Part shown: one piece after another, positions 13,192 through 64,000 of the stretch
How the letters are laid out: every line of letters starts with the position of its first letter
Numbering within the stretch: position 1 is the first letter of the stretch
Source: Polychytrium aggregatum
Taxonomy: Eukaryota > Chytridiomycota > Chytridiomycetes > Polychytriales
Length of the DNA: 64,000 bases
Reading direction: 5' to 3'
Assembly (NCBI RefSeq): GCF_025602895.1
Contig: NW_026516374.1
Span: forward strand, 1-64,000
The notes under the pieces: generated by a model
The model's database searches: none
The model's input: only the letters and a program-made list of their open reading frames with translations
What the model was told of the DNA's origin: nothing
Position numbers and translations under genes: made by a program

Positions 13192-14833
13192 CTAGCGATG
13201 TCTTGGGCTTCCTGTCCTGGGAGTCGCATATAAGGCGTGGGCCGCATCTGGGGTTTGATAGCATCGGCCAAAGCCGCTTTTAGAGGCCTGGGCAAACGGC
13301 GACACGGATACATTCATCTGGGTTGCGTTCCAGTCCCGAAGGCTTTCGCGACCATGGCCCAGCTCGGCCCCAGGCATATGGAATGAGGACACATGCACTG
13401 GAGAGTGCACTTCTTCGGAGCCGTAGCCTGTGGGCAGGACTGCTGGTGACAGAGGCGCCATTGCACCAGGTCGAAAACAAGCGGACGATGGCCCACCAAA
13501 CTGATAGACGGCGGCGCCCGCTGAATAGGGTACATCGGCGCTGGAGGGGTTCGAGGGCCAGGCCGAGCCGGTTTCACCATAGTTGTGCCTTGAGGACGTC
13601 TGGCGTCCATTCTGGATGGCGCCGCTGGGCAGCGAAGGATGATGTGGATACGGATAGTGCGGCGGCGAATGCTGCGAGGAGTGCACACCGTGAATTCCGT
13701 GTGCTGAGCCGGACTTTTGGGGCCGAGGGGTTACTCCGGGCGGGGCCGGCCCCTTGCCGTGCAGGAACCGGCACTCTGGCCCCCGGGTGCAAGTGCCTGT
13801 GAGCCAGTAGCGGCAAATGGTGGTGCTATGAAAGACACCCGAGCCCGTCTTGTTGAGTGCGGCAAAGGATGACTGGTTTGCGGCGACGTTGGGAGCAGAG
13901 TGCTTTGACGGACGAGGACTGGTGGGGCTTCGGGAAGTGCCCGTGGATCCATCTGGATGGGCACTTGGGCTGACGGTGCAAGCCGAGGTTGGGGGGCTGG
14001 GGCTGTTTCCGGTCCTGACGACAGCTGTACTGATTTTGAGATTATGCGAGGATTGAGAGGCTTTGTTGGGATGTCCCGTTGGCGAAATTCTGTTGTTCGA
14101 GGCCGGATGTCTTGTCTGCATGACCGAGGGGACAGGCTCCAGGGAGGAACAGTCGGTGCCCGACTCGTCCGATGAGGACTTGGAGCGACAACGACCAGCA
14201 TCGACCATGCGGAGAGCTGCTGGCGGGTCCGGGTGTGACTGTAAGTCAGCTTGGTGACTGAACCAACATGAATCGCTGTACTTGCAGTGCCCCCGTTTCC
14301 AGTAGCGACACACGATGCTGGACCCGTTTTCGCAGTGGCCGGTGCCGGCGCCCGTGGAGACGGAAGCTTGAGCTTGAGCTGGAGCTGTAGCAGGAGCGAG
14401 TGCGGGTGCGTTCTTTGGGGGCGAGGGCTTGGGTCTGGGGTATGTGGCGGCCGCAATGAGCTGCTTGATCTCTGGGGTGGTTGCATGCGCAAGGGCGTCG
14501 CCGGCAAAGGCTGTTGGGGCAAGGACATGACGAGAGACGACAGGGGTGAGGAAGGGCATATCAGACATCTCAGACAGAGCAGACATATCAGACAGAGCGG
14601 GGCCGAGCCCAGGGAACGGACGAGAGGCTCCGCTACTTACACTCGTGGTGCGGGTTGGCTCCATACCGCAGCAGCTCGACAACGCAGTCAAGGTGGTTGT
14701 ATTTGGCAGCTTCGATTAGAGGCGTTCTGCCCATCGCATCTGTCCACTCAAGCTCCAAGGCACTCGCGCTTGGCAGCAACACCCTCAGCTGCGAGACATT
14801 GCCCGAGTTGGCAGCACACCAGATTTGAGACAT
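13192..14833 (-). CDS. Ankyrin-repeat/CCCH zinc-finger protein
   Basis: Two exons. Exon 1 is 14833-14641 (ATG at 14833; donor GTAAGT) and exon 2 is 14510-13192 (acceptor after CCCCAACAG); the frame is kept across the 130-bp intron. The N-terminus has ankyrin repeats (MSQIWCAANSGNVSQLRVLL; DAMGRTPLIEAAKYNHLDCV). Two CCCH fingers follow, both spaced C-x7-C-x5-C-x3-H: CRYWKRGHCKYSDSCWFSH and CRYWLTGTCTRGPECRFLH. The rest is low-complexity Pro/Ser/Ala sequence. Ankyrin repeats joined to paired CCCH fingers suggest an RNA-binding regulator, as in plant TZF/AtC3H proteins. The function here is inferred. Confidence 0.85.
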
Positions 14834-27631: not shown

Positions 27632-30600
27632 TCACTTCATATAGGTCTCGCGGATGCGGCTGCGGAGCAGCAGCCGATTGACGAGCTTGGTCCAGTTTCC
27701 GAGCGCCCGCACCGCCTTTTGCTCTGCCTGCTTTCGGTCCTTGGCAATTGTGATTTCTCGATATGCCTGAAAGAAAGCCGATGGGTCGGTTACCGGGCCT
27801 GGGTCGCACTCGTGGGACAATCCAGTCACCAGCAAGCGCCATCGGCTGGGCCCTACCTCGAGCAATATCTCTTGGTACTCCTCGGCGACAACGATTCCCT
27901 GATACACTGGCGTGGATTTACCCTTGTTGAATTCGAATCCGGTCTGGCCAGCAGGAAGAGCTCGTCAGCTGGTAGCGCGGGGACTGGTTTTTGGCTTCAT
28001 TGTTGCCCAAATGGCTCGGCCCAAGCTCCAGGTTGGAAGCGACTTACCACAGCGTTTGCATAGTCGATATTGAGCTTCTGCGCGACTTTACCAAGCCCAG
28101 ACACTAGGATCACATACGATAAGCACCAGGGATCGGTGGCCGTGAGAGCAGCCATGCATTGCCCATCTGTAGCTCAGTCGTTGCGTACCTTTGATGTGGA
28201 CGCCACCAATCGGTACCATGCTTTCGTGCAGGATTTCAATATTGCCGAATTGGTTCTTTGGAATTATTCCCTGCCATAAGGTGCATCTTAGTAAGTGCTC
28301 CCGATAGATACACCAGCCGGTATTGCAGTGACGCCAGACCCGGCGTGCCAGCGATCGCGACTGTCGCTGGCAGCTGCCAGAGTGCATCGTGCCGCTAGAG
28401 ACTCTCCTCTTACATCCTCGATAAGGGGGGGCTTGTACAGCTCCGTCTGCCAAATGCCAAAGAGCCCAATCTTGGAGCTGTCGATCAGGACATCGCCCTG
28501 CTCATCGTCTAAAAGCTGCAGCTCGCGATTGCTGGCTTCGTGCTCGATATCGCGCCTCCGCTGGATCGACGCTTGTCTCACAGGTACGATCTTGGCCGGC
28601 TTCTCATCCGGCTTGATTGACCTTCCACGGCGGAGCCAGCCATTGACCGAAAGAGCCTGGGAACATCCCAACAAGAAAGGGGATTTGTTATACCGATGCT
28701 GGATGTCCACTCGGGCACATCGCCCGATCCCTCGACTGCCCGTCTTTGCCCGTCTTACCTCTTGCACATTTCGTCGCGGGTACACCGGCTCGCCCTTGTA
28801 CTGGCCGATCATGTTCTCTTTGCCAGCAGGCCAGATCACTTCGTTGCGTTTGCAATGCTTCTCCAGGGCAAAGAGAGGGTGGTTGTTGAATCCGGCAAGC
28901 CTCGTCGGCATCTTCTCGGACCGCAACTGCTCCCGGAAGAACTGTTCTTCGCGGGCGTCTTTGTCGGTGTCTCGCTCCGACATGGACAAGAGCCACAGCG
29001 CCCGATTCCACCATTCTTCGCCTTCGAGGCCAGCAGGAAGTCGGTTGCGTGATGTCTGAGCACCCCAGGCGGGTGCATATCTGCGAGTAACATCTTTGCA
29101 CTCGTGCAGAGGGCCATACGCAACAATGTACGAGAGCTGTAGTTGCAGGGGCTTGTTTGGTCCTGGAGCCATATCCAGTGGTCGGTCGACCATGCCCTTG
29201 TTCGGATCAACCGGAATCCATTCATCGCAATGCGGCGAATGGACCTCGCACCAGAGCGTAAGGGGATATGGCACCATGATGAAGCGATCGTCATCGAACG
29301 GGATCTCTCCAGCGTCCTTAGCTGTCCGGATATCCAGGTACAAAATGAAGGTTTAGCAGCCGAGCATCCATCAGCATGAGGATCACAGATCACAAATACG
29401 GCCGATTCGGTTCTTGCCGGCGACTATCGCCGCCCATTCCGGACCCATGCCAACCAGGCTGCTACCTCGGTCCTCACCTGAGTTGGTTTTGCGCCGCTTC
29501 GTTGGACGCCGATCCGAGGCTGGGGCGGTGACGCTACCCTCGACGTCGTTCGGATTGCTGCCGCCCGGATTGTTGTCGGGAGATTCATCAGCCTTCCGCA
29601 TGCGGCCAAGCTCGCCCGAGAACGACAGGGGTATGGGATGGAGCGAGACGGCTAATCGAGCGTCCAAACCAATGCCCCGCATGGCGGCGACAAACAGAAT
29701 TGCTGAAACTTCTGGCGACAGCGCCGTCTTGGAGCCTTCCTGCGATGGCGGTCGACTCAGAAACCGACCGAATTTCTCCATTACCGAGCCCACGCCTGAC
29801 GGAGGCGCTTCGTCAGGGTCGAACGAGGGTTTGATGTCGCGCTTCCACCATATGGCCAGGAGCCGGAGATAGTGGATCAGATACCGATGGTTGGCCACAT
29901 TCTGTTGACCGCTGATGCCGGAGGCGCGGCTGGAGAGTCTCGTCAGAGATTCTGCGATCTGTCGTGGTATCGCCGAGCGAGCGACGTTCTGCGGACGAGG
30001 CTGCCGTTAAGACCACATTGAGGCACTGTCCAGGATGCAAGATGGGCGATCTGACCGTTGATATGCATCCGCCCGCATCTGCTACCGACTCACTTGCAGC
30101 TCGGGGTCGTGGCACCAAATGTTTCGATTGCTACCGCAGATCAGAAGACAGAGCAAATGGGCTTTGTGCATCGCCATGCGCAGATCTCTGTCTTCCTTCG
30201 TGATGCCTTTGGTTTTGGGCGAGGCCCGCTGTTGCTTCCGGGCATCCTTGTCGCTGCAGACGATACGACGTCAGGAAGCTGAGGCCGTAGTACACACAGA
30301 TACAGCATGAGGGCTGCATGTTGCAGAATGCTTACAGAAACGCTTTGAGCTTGGGAATGGCGATCTCTAAAGGACCAGAGGACGAGCTGGTGCCGAGCAG
30401 GTCCGAGCCAGAGCCTGTATGCCCTGCATCATCATGGGACGCAACCGCTTGTCGTCCAGCACGAACCACGACCAAATGCTTCTGATTAGACTACAAGCCC
30501 ATTCGCCTGCAGTCCAGTCGCAAGCCAGCATCCCATAGCCGTTTGTATATCTATCATCCTGTCCACTCTCCCGAGTCGCCGGATCGTCAAAGGCCAGGTT

Positions 30601-55310: not shown

Positions 55311-56762
55311 TTACTTTGCGGATGCTTTGAAGTAGTCGTCCAGCGTGGCCTGCACGCTCGCTTTTCCGCTCTGACTGTCGCTCTCGCGGGCGTCGTCGAC
55401 TTTGCGCCTCTTGCCTCCTGGTGCTAGCCCGCAACCCGGGTCGTCCTGGGAGTCGGCGTAAGGCGATGCTGACGTTTTCACCAGCGACATTCGGTCTCCG
55501 GTGGCAGGTTTCCGACGAGATGTGGGCCGCGCAGGCTTGTTCGTATCCTCGGGCCCCGAGATTTTGCTGTACTCGCCTCCGCAGGACATTTGGTGATCCG
55601 CCCACCATCGGTCTGCCGGCTGGGGCGGTCGGTTCATCGCTCGACGGACGATTCCAAAGTACGGTGGTTGGTTCTGGCAGGGGCCGTTGCATTTCCAAAC
55701 ATGCACACGATAGTGATCGACTTCGTCGTGAAAGCTGCGATGAATTGGGAGGTGGACAGTACCCGCGAGTCGGGTCAGAATCTGCAAAGCAGCAGCAGGC
55801 GGAGCGATATTCAACGAAGAGGCGCAACAGATACCCAGAGGCAAGAGCCACTCGTCGGTCGATACAGCGAGATTGTCGTCCTACCTGTGGTACACAGTAA
55901 TGTTGGTGAGCTGGCTGTCATTGATGCGGTTTGCCTGCTTCATGAACTGCGGTCCATGTCCATCTTTGTGAGAGCGATGACGTTTCGTTAGCAACATCGG
56001 TGTCTGGCGTGTGCATCCTAGCGACGGCTAGGGTTCGGCAATGAAAGCAACGGAGGACTCCGGCCGATCGTGAATGGCCAGGAAGTTATCCGAGTCAATA
56101 GAAGGATACCCTGCCGCTGCGTACCATGATCGTCGTTGTTCTCCGTGACAAACAGGTAGGCATGGATCATTTCGTGCAGCAGCGTGTCGATTCGGTCTGA
56201 TTTGGATCGAAACTTGAGCAGCGGTTCGCTCAACCGGATCTTACAGTATCCGCCTTTAAAGAGCCACGCACATGGCGAAGCAGTCAGCGACAATATGAGA
56301 TTATCAGGGAGGCAAAGTCATCAGGTCCGTTGCAGCGTGCGTAGCTCATCCAGACAGATTGGTCAAGAGCGCAGAGCTGACCTCGAAAGTAGGAGCACAT
56401 CCCTGCGCACAGGCTGCCAAGGAGTCGGGGCAACTGAGAAGTTAAAAGGCTCCGTAGAGATGCTCCCAGCCATGTCAAAGCCCGAGGGTGCAACATATTC
56501 GACCTACGTCATTTTGGGGCTCCAGCCAACCTCGACTGCGTCCAGTGCGTTGCCGAAACATGCCGAGTTGAAGTACAGGAACATTTCGTGCAGATCGGGG
56601 TTGGGGTCGTCGGAGAGGTGGAAGGGCGAAGCCATCTTGCCTCGAGTGATGCGCAGGTGAGGGAGATGCCACGGGGGGCTGGGGGATGGCACCGAAGAGA
56701 TCGCTTTCGTTCTTGCTCAACACCCGATGACGATGTTCGTGGATGCTGGCCAAGACATCCAT
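55311..56762 (-). CDS. SPRTN: SPRTN/Spartan DNA-dependent metalloprotease
   Basis: SprT-type protease that degrades DNA-protein crosslinks at replication forks. Exon near 56605-56510: DLHEMFLYFNSACFGNALDA with VEVGWSPKMT. Next LCAGMCSYF (56420-56390). Active-site exon near 56255-56130: GGYCKIRLSEPLLKFRSKSD, then LLHEMIHAYLFVTENNDDHG with the HExxH zinc motif. Exon near 55730-55540: FHDEVDHYRVHVWKCNGPCQ and PPYFGIVRRAMNRPPQPADR, then WWADHQMSCGGEYSKI. The C-terminus has a basic KRRKVDD, a putative nuclear signal, and ends QATLDDYFKASAK, a match to the PCNA-interacting PIP box (Q-x-x-L-x-x-aromatic-aromatic). TAA is at 55311. Start chosen at the ATG at 56762; an alternative is 56635. It is divergent from the TIR-NACHT-WD40 gene. 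Confidence 0.92.
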
Positions 56763-56782
56763 GAGAACCGGATCAACCAAAG

Positions 56783-56855
56783 CGAGAGAGCCGAGAGAGA
56801 GCCGAGAGAGAGCCGAGAAGGTGCCGAGAAGGTGCCGAGAAGGTGCCGAGAGAGA
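56783..56855. repeat. 10-12 bp minisatellite (GCCGAGAGAGA / GCCGAGAAGGT)
   Basis: Six to seven head-to-tail units in two variants, in the short intergenic space between the SPRTN start and the TIR-NACHT-WD40 start. It lies in the probable shared promoter. Confidence 0.9.
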
Positions 56856-56976
56856 GGGTGACACTGCCAAGCCACACATGGCATCGCCGCATGTCCATTC
56901 GGCCCCTCCGACAGCTTGTCCTTCATCTCACCCGTTCGACATTCGATTTGCTGCTGTCACAACAAAGGCGCTCACG

Positions 56977-59900
56977 ATGGGCGAAGGTGGGTGATGCTGT
57001 CGTTGCCGATCAGTGACTTCCTTCACCGACTAATTTGCGGTTTGCCTGGGCCGAATGACTCGAACCCTCCTTGGCCATCTGCTGCCTCTGCCTCTCTTGT
57101 TGCTCCAGTTGCTGCTGCCACCCCTGTTTCGGCCCTCACTCATACTGCCACCGAGCGAGAATACAACCGTCCTGTCCGGAACCCACGATGGAAATGCGTC
57201 AACGGCTTCCGAATCCACGACATCTTCATCAGGTTTGTTGGTGGCGATTGTTGTTGCCGATGATCCATTCACATCAGTCTCGCATCCATCTCACCGATAT
57301 TACATCCGTCCAGCTATCGTGTGGCCAGTGAGGAGGTGACTGCTGTCAAACTCCACTCGGCCCTCAGTGTTGGCCGTGTTGGTGAGCAGCACCCCTCCCA
57401 TGTCTACCTGGATGTCCGCTGTCTCGAGAGCGGACTGAGCTGGGAGGATGGTTTCATGAACGGCCTGGCCAACTCCAAGGTCATTGTGCTCCTCCTTTCC
57501 GAGGCTGGACTCGAGAGAACCAAGACTGCTGGCACCCTTCCAGACAACCAGTTCCTCGAGGTGAGTGCCGTCGATCGAGACCAACATCACCATCACCATC
57601 CACTCGCCATCTACTCACCGACGATCCTGTCACAGATCGAGCTGGCTCTGAAGCAGATGAAGGAGACCCAGAACACCCGCTCGCCCGTCCAGATCCTGCC
57701 GATCCTCATCAAGTCCAAGGAGATTATCAACGGCACCAAGTACATCAAGGACTGGTTCCCCAACACGAACGACTTTCCCAATGCCATCCACTGCCACAGA
57801 GCCAGTCCCTCCAAACTCGGCCAGATCAGCCCTCCCCTCACCGTGCGCCAGACTCTCGAGGAGTTGCTCAAGTTGCAGGCGCTGATTGCTGCCGACGACT
57901 ATGCCGTCACCAAGTGAGTGTGTCTGTGGAACTTGCTGATGGCATCCGTCTCATCCATCAGTTCATTGATGCAGACCATCCAGATGCTGACTCACACATC
58001 CACAGACTCGTCCCCGAGATCCGCGAGACCTGGAAGAAGACCAGCCTCGTTGCCACCGTGCCAACTTATCTCCCGACTGGATCGACTGTCCTCACTGCCA
58101 ACGAGAACCACGCCCTGCGACTCCTCCTCAGTCCCATCGACTCGGCCCTGGACAGACGAGCACTCGAGAAGCTGTTTGTCGAGGGCACCCGCCAATGGCT
58201 GTTCGACCAAACCACCGACTGGGTCAACCAGGACACCACCGACACTGTCCTGTGGGTCAATGCCGTTGCTGGAGTGGGCAAGTCTGTCGCTGCCGCCCAG
58301 ATCGCCAACATCCTCCAGGCAAACGCACAGTTGGTGGCAGCGCTGTTCCTCAAGTACAACGACACCCGCAAGAACAACCCTCGATCGGTGCTGAATACTA
58401 TCGCATACGGTCTGTGCAAGTGGTACTCGCCGATCGGCCTCAAGCTGCTCGATGCTGGCCACACCAAGGACAGTCTCGACAAGATGAACATCAACGATCT
58501 GTTCAAGGCTGTGATAGAGAGACCATTAGGGGCTCTGGGTGGCTACAAACCACAGGAAGCGATTGTGATCATGGTGGATGGACTGGACGAGTGTCATCCC
58601 CGTGACGAGATCCTCGGGTTCCTGGCCAGTGGACTGCAGCGACTGCACACGAAGCATCCGTGGCTCAAGTTGCTGCTGACATCCCGACCCGAGGACGACA
58701 TCAAGGCAGCATTTGATGGAGTCCCAACCAAGACGATCGAGCCGTCGAGCGAGGAGAACGTCCGTGACCTCGAGGTGTTCATCCGCCACCGACTGCGAGT
58801 GTATGACACTCTCAGTGACTCGGACCGCACCGAGGCAGTCGCCATCCTGCTGGACCAGTCCAAGACATTCGTGTGGATCAACCTGATCCTCAACACCGTC
58901 GACGCAGCATCCAAGGACGGCCCAGTGACACTCGCCACGATCAAGGACATCAACGACAGCGCCGCCGATGTCGGTCAGCTGTACCACAAGACATTCGCCA
59001 AGATTCACTCGCAGTCAAGCCACCCGGCCGAGTCGGTCACGGTGGCGTCGGCGATCGCCACGGCCCAGTCGATCCTGACCCCGCAGATCATCGCCGATGT
59101 GTTTGGACTCGAGATCGGCGTCGTTTGCGAGTGTCTCAAGAGCCTCAGTCTGGTCCTCGATCCTGGCGCCAATGGACTGGGTCCCCGAGGCAGCCAGTCC
59201 ACCAACACCGAAGTCAAGTTCAACCACAAGTCGGTGGCGGACTATCTCCTCGGCGATGCATCGGCTGGCTATCCGTGGCATGTGTCGGACTCGTTCCACA
59301 CGGTGTTTGCCAAGGGATGTCTCGGTGTGATCCTCTCGCACGACCCAGTGATCAACATCTGCGACATCTACGACTTTCACGACAAGATCGCTGACCTAGA
59401 GGACAGGGTCGCAGCCAAGATCACACCGTCGCTGCGATACAGCGTCGCCCACTGGATCACACACTTTGTGTGGTGTGTGGAAGGAGTGGCCGAGTCGAGT
59501 CCGGTGTGGCAGTCGTCCGAGATGGTCGATGTGGCAGCGGTGCTCACTCGGTTCGTCAAGACGCATGTGTTCTTCTGGCTCGAGTGTGGGTCGCTCACAC
59601 ATGTGGTCAAGCCGATCATCGAGCAACTGGCTGTGCTGCGAGGAGTGATCACCAAGGCACCCAGCACCATCGTCGACGACACCACGAAGGAACTGGTCAA
59701 GGACACGTATCGATTCATCCGCGAGTTTGCCGACCCGATCATTGCGAGTGCACCACAGGTGTACAACTCGGGGTATGCATTCACACCAAAGGAGACGGCG
59801 ATCTACAAGACATATGCCACCCAGCTCGAGGACAAGATCTCGTTCCTGGTCACGGCTGGTCCAGCACCCACCTGGGATCCGTGTGAGATGACATTGACTG

Positions 59901-61844
59901 GTCACTCGAGCCAAGTGAATTCTGTGGCAATCTCGCCCGATGGCAAGTGGATTGCCTCTGCCTCAGACGATGAAACTGTCAAGGTGCGTAGTGTTACCAC
60001 GGGTCAAGTCAGTCGTAGCCTTGAAGGGCACATCAAGCCCGTAACCTCGGTGGCGATCTCACCCGACGGCAAGTGGATCGTCTCTGGCGCGGCTGACAAG
60101 ACCATCAAGGTGTGGGATATTATCACTGGCCAGCTGAATCGCACTCTCGAGGGACATGTAAGGAATGTGAACACAGTGGCGATCTCACCTGATGGGAAGT
60201 CAATTGTCTCGGGCTCGGATGACAAGACCATCAAGGCGTGGAGTGTCGCGACAAACCAGGTGGAGTACACCCTTGTGGGACACACAGGAGGCGTGACCTC
60301 GGTCTCGATCTCACCCGACGGCAAGTGGATTGTCTCTGGTTCTAAGGACAGGACCATCAAGGTGTGGGACGCCACGACAGGCCAATTGAAGCGCACATTG
60401 GATCAGCATACCGACTGGGTGCTCTCGGTGGCCTTCTCTTCCGATGGAAGGCGTATCGTATCCGGCTCTCTTGACAACGCCATCATGGTCTGGGATGCCG
60501 TCACTGGCCAGGTCAAGCACACTCTCAAAGGGCACACAGAAGGTGTGAGCTCTGTAGACATTTTGCCCGATGGCGGGTCGATCATCTCTGGCTCTGGTGA
60601 CGGCACAATCAAGATCTGGGACTCCACCACAGGCGAGGTGACGCGCACTCTCAAGGGACACGCAGGCACTGTGAACTCCGTGGCGATATCGGCCGATGGC
60701 AAATGGCTTGTTTCTGGCGCGTGTGACGAGACTGTCAAGGTGTGGGATGTTGCCATGGATCAGGCAAAGTGCACTCGCGAAGGACATGCCCACTTGGTCC
60801 TCTCCGTGGCCATCTCACTCGATGGAAAGCTGATCGTCTCCGGCTCCCGGGACAAGACCATCAAGGTGTGGGATGCCATCGCGGGCCAGTTGAAGCACAC
60901 ACTTGAAGGGCACGCTAACTTGGTGCTCTCGGTGACAATCTCATCGGACAGCAAATCGATCGTCTCTGGCTCAAGTGACGAGACCGTCAAGGTGTGGGAT
61001 GCCACCACGGGTCGATGGAAGCGCACTCTCAAAGGACATGCCGGCGCTGTGTTTTCGGTTGCCATCTCGCCCGATGGCAAGTGGATTGTTTCTGGTTCCC
61101 GGGACACAACCATCAAGGTGTGGAACTTGGGCACAGGCCAAGTAAAGCACACACTTGAAGGACATAGTTGGGATGTGAACTCCGTGGCAATCTCACCCGA
61201 TGGCCAATCGATTGTGTCTGGTTCGGGTGATTGCACCGTCAAGGTGTGGGACATCAACACCGGTCGGCTGAAGCACATCCTTGAAGGACACTCAGGATAT
61301 GTCAGCTCTGTAGCGATCTCGCCGGATGGCTTGCTCATCAAGTCTTGGTCCAATTGTGAAGTCATCGGCTGGGTCCGTCGGGGCAACACGTTCGTCCGCT
61401 CCGATGACGATCTTGCCAGGTTCGCCGTCGCCGCTTCGCCACCTGTCTCGCCCCAATGGGTAAAGAGTGGGGACCTGCAATCCGAGTGGATCTGCCACGG
61501 CAAACACAGTGTCAAAATCCCGCACGCTTCCCTCGGTGACTGGTGGAGCCGGTTCTCAACTTCTCCCGACGGGATTGCATTTTGGACCATGCCTCCATAC
61601 CGTCCCGTCGCCATCCTGGTAAGTTCAAGTCAGACGTCACATCGCTCCTCGACTGCAGCTGACATCTCGTTTCCCATAGCCAATCTACCTCGGCACCCCA
61701 CGGATCCAAGTAGAAGTTGCCTCCTACCTCAGAAACTCTCCTGATCCCGAACGACGGTCTCGTGCGGAAATCATTCTATCAAGTCCGGTAGTGACTGCCT
61801 TCCTTGAGAAGGGGCGAAAGACTAGAAGCCAAAAATACCCCTGA
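56977..61844 (+). CDS. TIR-NACHT-WD40 NLR-like (STAND) receptor
   Basis: Model of six exons: 56977-56986, 57109-57232, 57314-57560, 57636-57913, 58006-61618, 61680-61844. They sum to 4437 nt, 1478 codons plus stop, with every junction in phase. TIR domain, residues about 38-190: DIFISYRVASEE, VYLDVRCLESGLSWEDGF, KVIVLLLSEAGLE. FLEIELALKQ forms across the third intron; its Glu 127 aligns with the NADase glutamate of SARM1-type TIRs. NACHT: P-loop NAVAGVGKSVAA (about residue 304), Walker B IVIMVDGLDECHP (about 405), LLLTSRPEDD. Twelve WD40 repeats of about 42 residues lie between about 847 and 1335, highly alike (AISPDGKWIVSGSRDKTIKV). The C-terminal exon adds IYLGTPRIQVEVASYLRNSP. By analogy with fungal and animal STAND proteins it should sense a ligand with the WD40s, oligomerise through NACHT and fire the TIR, in self/non-self or cell-death signalling (inferred). 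The tiny first exon is the least certain part. Confidence 0.9.
59887..61375 (+). repeat. Array of twelve 126-bp WD40-coding repeats
   Basis: Each unit is 42 codons with near-identical blocks (GTCTCTGGTTC/CCGG, ACCATCAAGGTGTGGGA, GTGGCGATCTCACCCGA). Ten of the twelve end in [IV][KM][VAI]W. DNA-level likeness between units is high enough for slippage or gene conversion, as in the fungal HET-D/HET-E family. Confidence 0.9.
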
Positions 61845-62093
61845 TGCCAAGCTCAAAGACTCGCTCCAGTGCCTCCGCAGGCAGAGTGCTTGAGCCATCC
61901 GGATGCAGTGCCGCCAAATGAGATCGATGCATTGCAATAGATTGACTGAATCATGAAGCCAGCTCGTTCCGCGACGGGCTGCGGCAATGCGGATGAGTGA
62001 GTCTCGCGCGTGGGGCTCACGCAACTCGACGGGGTTGGCTCTGTCGGGGAGAGTGCGATGTGATGAAAGCGATTTAGTGAATGTGGCGTACAT
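61779..62093 (-). other. Open frame overlapping the NLR 3' end in antisense; possible last exon of the gene to its right
   Basis: This minus-strand frame looks protein-like (LRRHWSESLSLASGV; TSWLHDSVNLLQCIDLIWRH) and is preceded at 62094 by a good acceptor (CGACCAG). The neighbouring gene has a GTAATA donor at its stop (62174), but joining the two gives the wrong frame by one base. It overlaps the last exon of the TIR-NACHT-WD40 gene. I leave it unresolved. Confidence 0.3.
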
Positions 62094-62170
62094 CTGGTCG
62101 CAGTAAGTGTTGGGCCAGCCTTATCCTCTCATCGCCGAGGGGCGTCAGCGATGGGAGGGTGTCGCATTTA

Positions 62171-64000
62171 TTACCGAGCTTTCTCATGCCAGATTTCCAT
62201 CAACTCCCGCCTCCCACCCATTCCCAACTGCTCGTACATCCATTTCATGGCTTGGATGTCCTCCAGTCCCGGCTCAAACCCTTCCACTTGCATCTCAGTG
62301 AAGATCCATTCGCACGCCTGACATAGCAAGTCGCGGATGTGTGGGTCCCGATGATGCTCCGGCCCAGACTGAGGAGCCAGTTGACTGTGTTCGGTCTTGG
62401 TTTCGGAGTCGATGAATCTTGCATACAGGCTAAGTGCCCCGCCGTAGAGCTCGACACTTGGGGCTTGCTGGGCAAGCTCGCTCGTGTCCCTCAGGAACTG
62501 CTTGAATATTCTCTTGACGCTGTCGAGCTCAAACGGCCGCAGCCTATTTTGGTATGCTAGATAGGGCGACTGGAACTGGGACGGCGGCAGAAGCCGCTGT
62601 CTCATGAGAATCGCATGCGGCTGGTGGGGGTGGTAGAATCGTGTCTGCAGTCGCTTGTCGTAGAGCGACAGCTTTCCAGACGACCGAGTACTTTGGAGCG
62701 AGAGTTCGTGATAGACATGGTAGATGTTCATGTAGTCTTGTCGGGTCCATCGCTGTCCCTTCAGATGGGCGCAATCGATCTCGAGAACGTCTCGGATCTT
62801 CACCCGGTTCAGCGATTCTTTATCACCGTTGCAACTGTCGCTGGGAAGCAGTCGCAGAATGCTCAGTGCGGCGTCGAGGCTCAGATCGCTGCAGAATAGC
62901 TGGAGTAACTTCGAGAGCACTGACTTTGGCACCCTGATCTCGAGCGGCTCTGTGCTGGCTGACCGAAGCAACGCCTGGATATCCTCGATGCGCCGGTCGC
63001 GGCCCAACTCGACAACCATGTGCTCCAGCATCGTCTGTAGCGCTTCGTCGTGGCGGTGGATTTGTATCCGAAGATCGTCGAGATTGTGGCAAGAGACTAC
63101 GGCCGAGAGCCGGCTACTGGCCCCATTGTGTGACTTTGGGAGTTCTGTGGGTGTGACTGCTGTCGACTGGCTTTCGTGTGTCTTGAGTTGGCTTCGGAGC
63201 GAGGTCATGGCGGCGTGGGTGCTGAAGAGAATGTCTTCTGCACGGGCGAAATCGCCCATCGCTGTGTAGAGGCGTAGCATATCGGTGCGCTGCGAGAGGC
63301 TGAGCTCGGTGATTGCTTGTGAGTGCGCATCATTTGGCGGGCTCCTGGGCCGCTTCCGTCGTCGAGCGCCTCCTCTTAGGCCTTGGTTGGTGGGCGATGA
63401 GGGTCCGGCAGCTATTTTTGCTTCGAGCACACCGAGTAGTTCGCCAGCCACCTTGGCTGAGCTACTCAGAATCGAGGCGGCTGCCCACAGAATCAAGTAT
63501 CCTGGGTCCAGCTGCGTCGAAGGAGGCTCTCGGCGCCTGGCACTCGGCGTCGCTGCAATAGTTCGGAGAATTTGCAGGGCCGAGGCTCTCTGGCCGTTTT
63601 GCAGAAAGATCCGCGTCAGTGTCTTGAGAAAGAACGGCGTCAAGTGCGCCTTTCTGCTCCTTAGGAACTTGAGAATGTCGACGGCGATGAGGAGGGCTTT
63701 CGAGTGGTTGGTTCTTGTGAGGTTGTGCAAGTACATTGCCAAAACATCTGCGGGTATCCCCGCGGTGCCCGGGGTTTCCTTGGAGAGCAGGGCAAGCGTA
63801 ATGTCGCTGGAAGGCAGTGTCTGAGTGTCCCAGTGATGTTTCAGAACCTCCCAGCGAGCCTGGCTGGCTTCTCGCGGGCTGGTCGATGCACGCTCTTCAA
63901 TCTGGTTGTAGATTGAATTAGCTTCGTGGGATCGTCCGCGCTCCAGTGACGCAACCATTTGCCACTTGAGACAGCCCGTCGGAATGGACAGGCCTGTGGA
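62171..64000 (-). CDS. TPR/PPR-like helical-repeat protein, 5' end outside the window
   Basis: The open frame runs from the right edge (first ATG inside the window at 63958, but the frame stays open to 64000) to a stop at 62171. It is uninterrupted for about 610 codons. It consists of helical hairpins (RGRSHEANSIYNQIEERAST; NHSKALLIAVDILKFLRSRK; LTRIFLQNGQRASALQILRT; RLYTAMGDFARAEDILFSTH), with a basic stretch (GARRRKRPRSPP) and tryptophans in the C-terminal part (DIQAMKWMYEQLGMGG). The pattern fits pentatricopeptide or TPR proteins, often mitochondrial RNA factors. No specific member is recognised. A stop directly follows a possible donor, so a further 3' exon may exist. Confidence 0.7.
   Translation of the reverse strand, partial: STGLSIPTGCLKWQMVASLERGRSHEANSIYNQIEERASTSPREASQARWEVLKHHWDTQTLPSSDITLALLSKETPGTAGIPADVLAMYLHNLTRTNHSKALLIAVDILKFLRSRKAHLTPFFLKTLTRIFLQNGQRASALQILRTIAATPSARRREPPSTQLDPGYLILWAAASILSSSAKVAGELLGVLEAKIAAGPSSPTNQGLRGGARRRKRPRSPPNDAHSQAITELSLSQRTDMLRLYTAMGDFARAEDILFSTHAAMTSLRSQLKTHESQSTAVTPTELPKSHNGASSRLSAVVSCHNLDDLRIQIHRHDEALQTMLEHMVVELGRDRRIEDIQALLRSASTEPLEIRVPKSVLSKLLQLFCSDLSLDAALSILRLLPSDSCNGDKESLNRVKIRDVLEIDCAHLKGQRWTRQDYMNIYHVYHELSLQSTRSSGKLSLYDKRLQTRFYHPHQPHAILMRQRLLPPSQFQSPYLAYQNRLRPFELDSVKRIFKQFLRDTSELAQQAPSVELYGGALSLYARFIDSETKTEHSQLAPQSGPEHHRDPHIRDLLCQACEWIFTEMQVEGFEPGLEDIQAMKWMYEQLGMGGRRELMEIWHEKAR

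Follow-up and report, generated by a model that had tools for sequence, protein, structure and literature searches.

The receptor gene and its exons

The 64,000-nucleotide stretch of DNA analysed here (contig NW_026516374.1, positions 1 to 64,000; hereafter the window) carries on its + strand a spliced gene that runs from 56977 or 56994 to 61844 and encodes a TIR domain followed by a NACHT domain and an array of WD40 repeats (Table 1). The introns are of the GT-AG type and the spliced frame is open throughout, with phase kept at every junction, as an original prediction from this DNA had stated. That prediction also placed a TIR domain ahead of NACHT and WD40, and this order holds: the profile comparison that it had put forward as a check gave excised residues 71-246 a score above the gathering score of the Pfam family TIR_2 (PF13676; 31.4 bits against a cut-off of 28, E 3e-7), the nucleotide-binding domain scores 100.6 bits on protein against NPHP3_N (cut-off 24.8), and WD40 profiles match twelve stretches of the protein.

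The product has 1513 amino acids if translation starts at ATG 56994 (exon 56994-57232, followed by the four further exons of Table 1). Alternatively, ATG 56977 would open a first exon of 10 nucleotides joined to an acceptor at 57108, giving about 1478 amino acids by arithmetic from the residue numbering of the original prediction. Because the second exon under this alternative starts where homology to the linkers of the paralogues starts, ATG 56977 is at least as good a candidate start as ATG 56994.

Table 1. Exons, introns and domains of the receptor gene (positions in the window)
Feature	Position	Strand	Remarks
5' coding region	56977..57232	+	ATG 56977 (10-nt exon, intron 56987-57108) or ATG 56994 (single exon); ends in TIR strand A (HDIFIS)
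Intron, 81 nt, from 5' region to first full TIR exon	57233..57313	+	GT-AG; donor and acceptor in 12/13 near copies (not L014)
TIR exon YRVASEE...NQFLE	57314..57560	+	Last codon 57558-57560 is the putative catalytic Glu, E162
Intron, 75 nt, directly after the putative catalytic Glu codon	57561..57635	+	In frame and stop-free in the window; deletions or stops in other copies
Second TIR exon IELALKQMK...	57636..57913	+	From splicing and paralogue alignment
Intron ahead of the NACHT-WD40 exon	57914..58005	+	GT-AG in 13/13 aligned near copies
Exon with nucleotide-binding (NACHT/NPHP3_N) domain, linker and WD40 array	58006..61618	+	From gene model and domain profiles
NPHP3_N-type NACHT NTPase with GVGKS P-loop	58184..58687	+	104.1 bits on DNA, 100.6 bits on protein
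WD40 array, 11 regular 42-aa repeats and a degenerate twelfth	59900..61411	+	Profile matches and repeat alignment
Last intron	61619..61679	+	GT-AG
Last exon with stop	61680..61844	+	From gene model

An intact gene under constraint

Could the exon model be a chance chain of open frames lying ahead of a NACHT-WD40 gene? The 75-nucleotide intron would suit such a reading, being in frame and free of stops in the window, yet the comparison with paralogues already contradicts it and makes it very improbable. When the window was aligned with 13 copies from the same genome, the splice sites of the last TIR intron were kept in all 13 and those of the other two TIR introns in all except L014, which still keeps the acceptor at 57635; the donor at 57232 was also found in L037 and L038 in a separate inspection. 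The segment 57561-57635 is identified as an intron because it carries indels and in-frame stops in other copies, namely 11-nucleotide deletions in L031, L036 and L011, 9-nucleotide deletions in L040 and L041, and stops in L044 and L045. The constraint on the exons, the TIR_2 score above cut-off and 127 further matches of the TIR exon in the genome likewise speak against chance.

Against eight paralogues, in comparisons that are not independent of one another, the ratio of nonsynonymous to synonymous substitution rates (dN/dS) is 0.25-0.48 in the TIR exons (p<0.05 in seven of eight) and 0.25-0.41 in NACHT (significant in all eight), and the compared codons of both domains are free of stops. The claim of a live gene, made originally from the kept phase, is supported by recurring splice sites, intron indels and stops, and coding constraint. 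Judged by these comparisons, the window locus is a real and intact gene.

The 75-nucleotide intron is also a multiple of three and stop-free in several paralogues, with stops or frame shifts in others; its retention would add 25 residues beside the active site, which is possible for some copies and impossible for others, and no function is claimed for it. L014 (C179:611395-614682) and L011 (C179:599763-603053) have a diverged or split first TIR exon, but their second TIR exon and their NACHT still show 86-88% protein identity. The first shared intron of L037 and L038 (oriented positions 1026-1452 in L037) holds an insert of about 350 nucleotides with a B-box-like GGTTCGACCCC, an A-rich tail and flanking CATCTCGCAT repeats, which by eye resembles a short interspersed element derived from a tRNA.

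A TIR domain resembling that of SARM1

Searched against all Protein Data Bank (PDB) sequences at E up to 10, a profile built from nine TIR sequences of the family finds 22 matches. Entries titled SARM1 occupy the first 17 places, with a best E of 4.9e-5, and the remaining matches are a spermidine acetyltransferase, tir-1, a SARM1/tir-1 chimera, TcpB and an uncharacterised protein. In the alignment, the Glu of KEIVTAL in SARM1, taken to be the catalytic Glu642 in helix C, falls opposite the first Glu of FLEIELAL. The latter, E162 of the 1513-residue model, corresponds to the Glu127 singled out originally (the numbering is shifted by 35) and is invariant in nine of nine aligned copies. The second Glu of the same motif was considered as the catalytic residue and rejected in favour of the first on the strength of the SARM1 alignment and of paralogue variation, being Gln in two of the nine. 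Both FISYR and FLEIELAL are present as described; the segment given as SxxWE has its W and E, again invariant in all nine copies, but reads SGLSWE, that is, SxxxWE.

The window TIR is therefore best described as SARM1-type and is predicted to cleave nicotinamide adenine dinucleotide (NAD). It is also possible, if unlikely, that the TIR serves as a scaffold for assembly only, as in many Toll-like adaptors, with the output coming from partners and the conserved Glu being structural. SARM1 is reached by the family profile and not by the window TIR alone, which as a single sequence finds nothing in the PDB at E up to 10, and a resemblance confined to the profile level would fit a scaffold and tells against a SARM1-type enzyme. 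However, the best PDB match of that profile is an NADase, and the Glu at the catalytic position does not vary while its neighbour does.

The TIR of the SAM-TIR protein from paralogue L040 scores 30.8 bits with TIR_2 (cut-off 28). On genome DNA the same profile has 16 matches, none of them at the window locus, a miss attributed to the introns and to the distance from the model, and the TIR profile PF01582 has no match in this genome. No ARM family is among the 25 matches listed of the 59 for the window protein.

The NACHT domain and the WD40 array

The GVGKS P-loop is present in all 20 of the fetched loci L031-L050, a count that includes the allele and haplotype copies. The NACHT region, searched against the PDB, found no NOD-like receptor (NLR), its two matches at E about 0.5 being unrelated. 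Downstream, WD40 repeats follow in six of six paralogue frames tested.

The WD40 repeats average 66% nucleotide identity. Their most variable positions are 5, 23, 4, 25, 33, 32 and 7 in the pooled repeats, with a similar set in the window alone; these seven were picked for testing after the window repeats had been viewed, and the permutation value obtained for them is therefore not independent. Positions 5, 7, 23 and 25 correspond, at an offset of two, to codons 7, 9, 25 and 27 of the WD40 repeats of Podospora HET-D/E, reported as positively selected (PMC1805685).

A large family in the genome

The original prediction held that a TIR domain in front of NACHT and WD40 is rare in fungi, which does not fit this genome. 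In the 64.7-Mb assembly, where all counts are lower bounds and broken copies are left in, an 83-residue TIR exon query has 128 matches at E<=1e-3 (127 besides the window) and the NPHP3_N profile has 106. Once pieces are joined, 92 of 101 NACHT places are preceded, within 2.5 kb and in the same orientation, by a family TIR exon, and 35 of 127 TIR places are without such a NACHT. Of the nine NACHT places left unpaired, three (C90, C320 and C223) show a TIR_2 match upstream when compared by eye. A neighbour gene of the window receptor occurs twice, on C82 and on C372, so the assembly holds both haplotypes at this locus and a single haploid set has fewer members.

Among the TIR exon matches, sixteen dispersed ones share a score of 75.2 bits and a seventeenth scores 74.3; all 17 are accompanied by a SAM exon match. 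Such equal scores (on C241, C303, C252, C322, C371 and others; one locus, L051, was fetched) suggest that these copies were multiplied in a recent burst or strongly homogenised. At three other places (C113:228885-230145, C134:9542-10802 and C146:143093-144832) an NB-ARC match follows a distant TIR exon match on the same strand after about 0.7-0.8 kb, and these are possible TIR-NB-ARC genes, similar to those of plants, beside the TIR-NACHT family. The HET profile (PF06985) has no match in the genome and none in its control, so that absence is not demonstrated.

A SAM domain ahead of the TIR in relatives

The relatives carry one element that the original prediction did not mention, a SAM domain ahead of the TIR. 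Motif patterns detect SAM halves in this position in 16 of the 20 loci L031-L050, with both halves in seven, and detect none in L035 (the allele), L044, L045 and L049. A SAM was also recognised by eye upstream in L051, so that 17 of the 21 loci fetched carry one. All five SAMs that were spliced score above the SAM_1 or SAM_2 cut-off; when L040 is read as a longer SAM-TIR protein, its SAM is under the cut-off (12.1 against 20.5) and its TIR above. Genome-wide, a SAM exon match lies within 1.5 kb upstream at 55 or more of the 128 TIR places. Each of the 118 SAM match intervals, many of them overlapping on one exon, is followed by a TIR exon, a figure that says nothing on other SAM proteins since the queries were the SAMs of this family. 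SAM-TIR-NACHT-WD40 is thus, on the available profiles and patterns, a common architecture of the family, from which the window copy and its allele differ in having no SAM.

The order SAM-TIR resembles that of SARM1. A profile of seven SAMs from the family has 21 PDB matches at E up to 0.1, namely 20 SAM proteins (Caskin, EphA receptors, SHIP2, ANKS, tankyrase and others) and one designed protein, with no SARM1 chain among them; this profile gives no sign that the SAM-TIR pair descends from a SARM1-like protein.

Patchy divergence between alleles

The other allele of the window gene is L035 on C372, which aligns in a single match from 55863 to 64000 at 97.8% identity. As many as 140 of the 153 differences fall within 57233-59880, or 2647 of 8115 aligned sites, leaving 13 elsewhere. 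Divergence is 9-11% in exon 57314-57560 and in the introns on either side of it, falls to 0.4% in exon 57636-57913, is 5.2% in 58006-59880, and amounts to 0.3% in the WD40 part and to 0 and 0.2% in the flanks. L037 matches L035 at each of the 14 differing sites of 57400-57635, and L031 and L038 do so at 13; across the whole of 57233-57635, with its 40 differing sites, none of the fetched copies stands out as donor. Furthermore, positions 58113-58412 of the window are 100% identical to L032/L033 in a part where the alleles differ by 8-13%, and L046, whose TIR has 51% protein identity, yet has 58114-60144 in common at 88% DNA identity.

Because the allele differences cluster in TIR-NACHT patches and segments are common with other paralogues, ectopic gene conversion would best explain the patchy divergence. 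Alternatively, the patches may come from a switch between paralogues in the assembly.

Proposed mechanism

How might such a receptor work? The window gene probably encodes a receptor of the STAND (signal transduction ATPases with numerous domains) or NLR type, with the WD40 array as sensor, NACHT as switch and a SARM1-type, NAD-cleaving TIR as effector, and it would be a member without SAM of a large family. The general mechanism of STAND proteins and of SARM1 provides the basis for a sequence of activation. A ligand would bind the WD40 array, the likely sensor, and release the NACHT NTPase, which would exchange its nucleotide and oligomerise. This assembly would bring the TIRs together, and once clustered they could start NAD consumption or nucleotide signalling, with cell death or arrest as the outcome. 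Where a SAM is present, it would provide a further means of clustering, as in SARM1. The NAD cleavage and the role in immunity or allorecognition suggested originally for the window receptor fit this scheme as predictions.

Several results weigh against it. The NACHT model proper (PF05729) scores 19.4 bits, under its cut-off of 26.7. Constraint on the TIR exons is not significant in the comparison with L039 (p=0.068), and some family members look broken, such as L032, whose NACHT frame stops after 403 amino acids and whose matches shift frame. For the supposed sensor, diversifying selection could not be shown because silent sites of the WD40 repeats are saturated (proportion of differing silent sites, pS, about 0.6). 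The ratio of replacement to silent differences per site (pN/pS) at the four positions also variable in Podospora is 1.08 in the window and 0.90 in the pooled repeats, against 0.34 and 0.44 elsewhere; a value of about 1 means less constraint and not diversifying selection, and variation at surface positions of this kind may occur in any WD40 protein. Finally, the window has no SAM match better than E 0.34 and its 5' end is common only to its allele among the copies aligned, so that the window copy could be derived or impaired.

These last two observations would also suit a decayed or dominant-negative derivative that has no SAM, the working relatives being the SAM-bearing paralogues. We hold this to be rather unlikely, as the frame is intact across 1513 codons and, per site, TIR and NACHT both show more silent than replacement changes, though conversion from working paralogues could have imported part of that constraint. 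With a functional receptor as the preferred reading of the window copy, a wider proposal can be put forward more tentatively: the standard NLR of this fungus may be SAM-TIR-NACHT-WD40, a SARM1-like SAM-TIR module set on an NLR switch at some 90 gene places (both haplotypes counted), with members trading TIR and NACHT segments by ectopic gene conversion. Members with and without SAM would then differ in how the NADase is clustered and might be partners in one network.

Comparison with known systems

SARM1 is an animal NADase with the order ARM-SAM-SAM-TIR. The family described here agrees with it in the SAM that precedes the TIR and in the TIR itself, whose profile finds SARM1 first and aligns the catalytic Glu; it differs in continuing with NACHT and WD40 and in that the relatives have one SAM and not a tandem pair. 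Bacterial TIR-STAND defence proteins follow the same general logic of a TIR joined to a STAND switch. Plant TIR-NB-ARC-LRR receptors (TNLs), to which the window receptor had been compared, have it as well, but here NACHT stands in place of NB-ARC and WD40 in place of leucine-rich repeats. The comparison holds for a TIR on a STAND switch and is weaker than the link to SARM1, as no plant-titled protein is among the 22 PDB matches of the TIR profile. Searches with two peptide patterns each found no relatives of the TIR in the prokaryote species genomes of GTDB or in viral contigs, which is not proof of absence.

The HET-E/HET-D/HET-R (HNWD) proteins of Podospora anserina resemble the family in the order effector-NACHT-WD40, in WD repeats of 42 amino acids, in the same variable positions and in exchange among family members. 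In contrast, their effector is HET and not TIR, and their repeat units are called highly conserved (PMC2873952), whereas those here average only 66% nucleotide identity.

TIR domains in NLRs of Chytridiomycota are mentioned in a paper that also lists SAM_Ste50p among fungal NLR N-termini (PMC9815663), and a small group of fungal TIR NLRs is mentioned in another (PMC10197012). A 2014 survey of 198 fungal genomes reports no NLRs for microsporidia, chytrids and mucorales (PMC4986451). If this genome belongs to such an early branch, it would have a large NLR repertoire, built largely on TIR. While TIR NLRs in Chytridiomycota are thus already published, the passages on them describe no SAM ahead of the TIR, and here a TIR precedes most NACHT places. 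No description of the SAM-TIR-NACHT-WD40 combination was met in the literature searched, most subscription journals and preprints lying beyond its reach. The terms TIR-NACHT and WD40 occur in an amphioxus paper (PMC2575513).

An engineered fusion of human SAM and plant TIR was reported to cause a hypersensitive response in tobacco (PMC10487714). A natural SAM-TIR-NLR would connect the SARM1 and the NLR modes of TIR switching, and with this family one could ask directly whether clustering through SAM and assembly through NACHT act as alternative or as additive triggers, and whether fungal TIRs cleave NAD.

Neighbouring genes and other observations

The chitin-synthase N-terminal family, a fungal one, has 13 matches in this genome and none in 14 control genomes, which supports a fungal source at a coarse level. 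On the - strand of the window lie Rad4 DNA-repair domains (28291-29352) and a CCCH zinc-finger protein (13195-14715). A further - strand frame at 56018-56317 contains LHEMIHAYLF and by eye resembles SprT.

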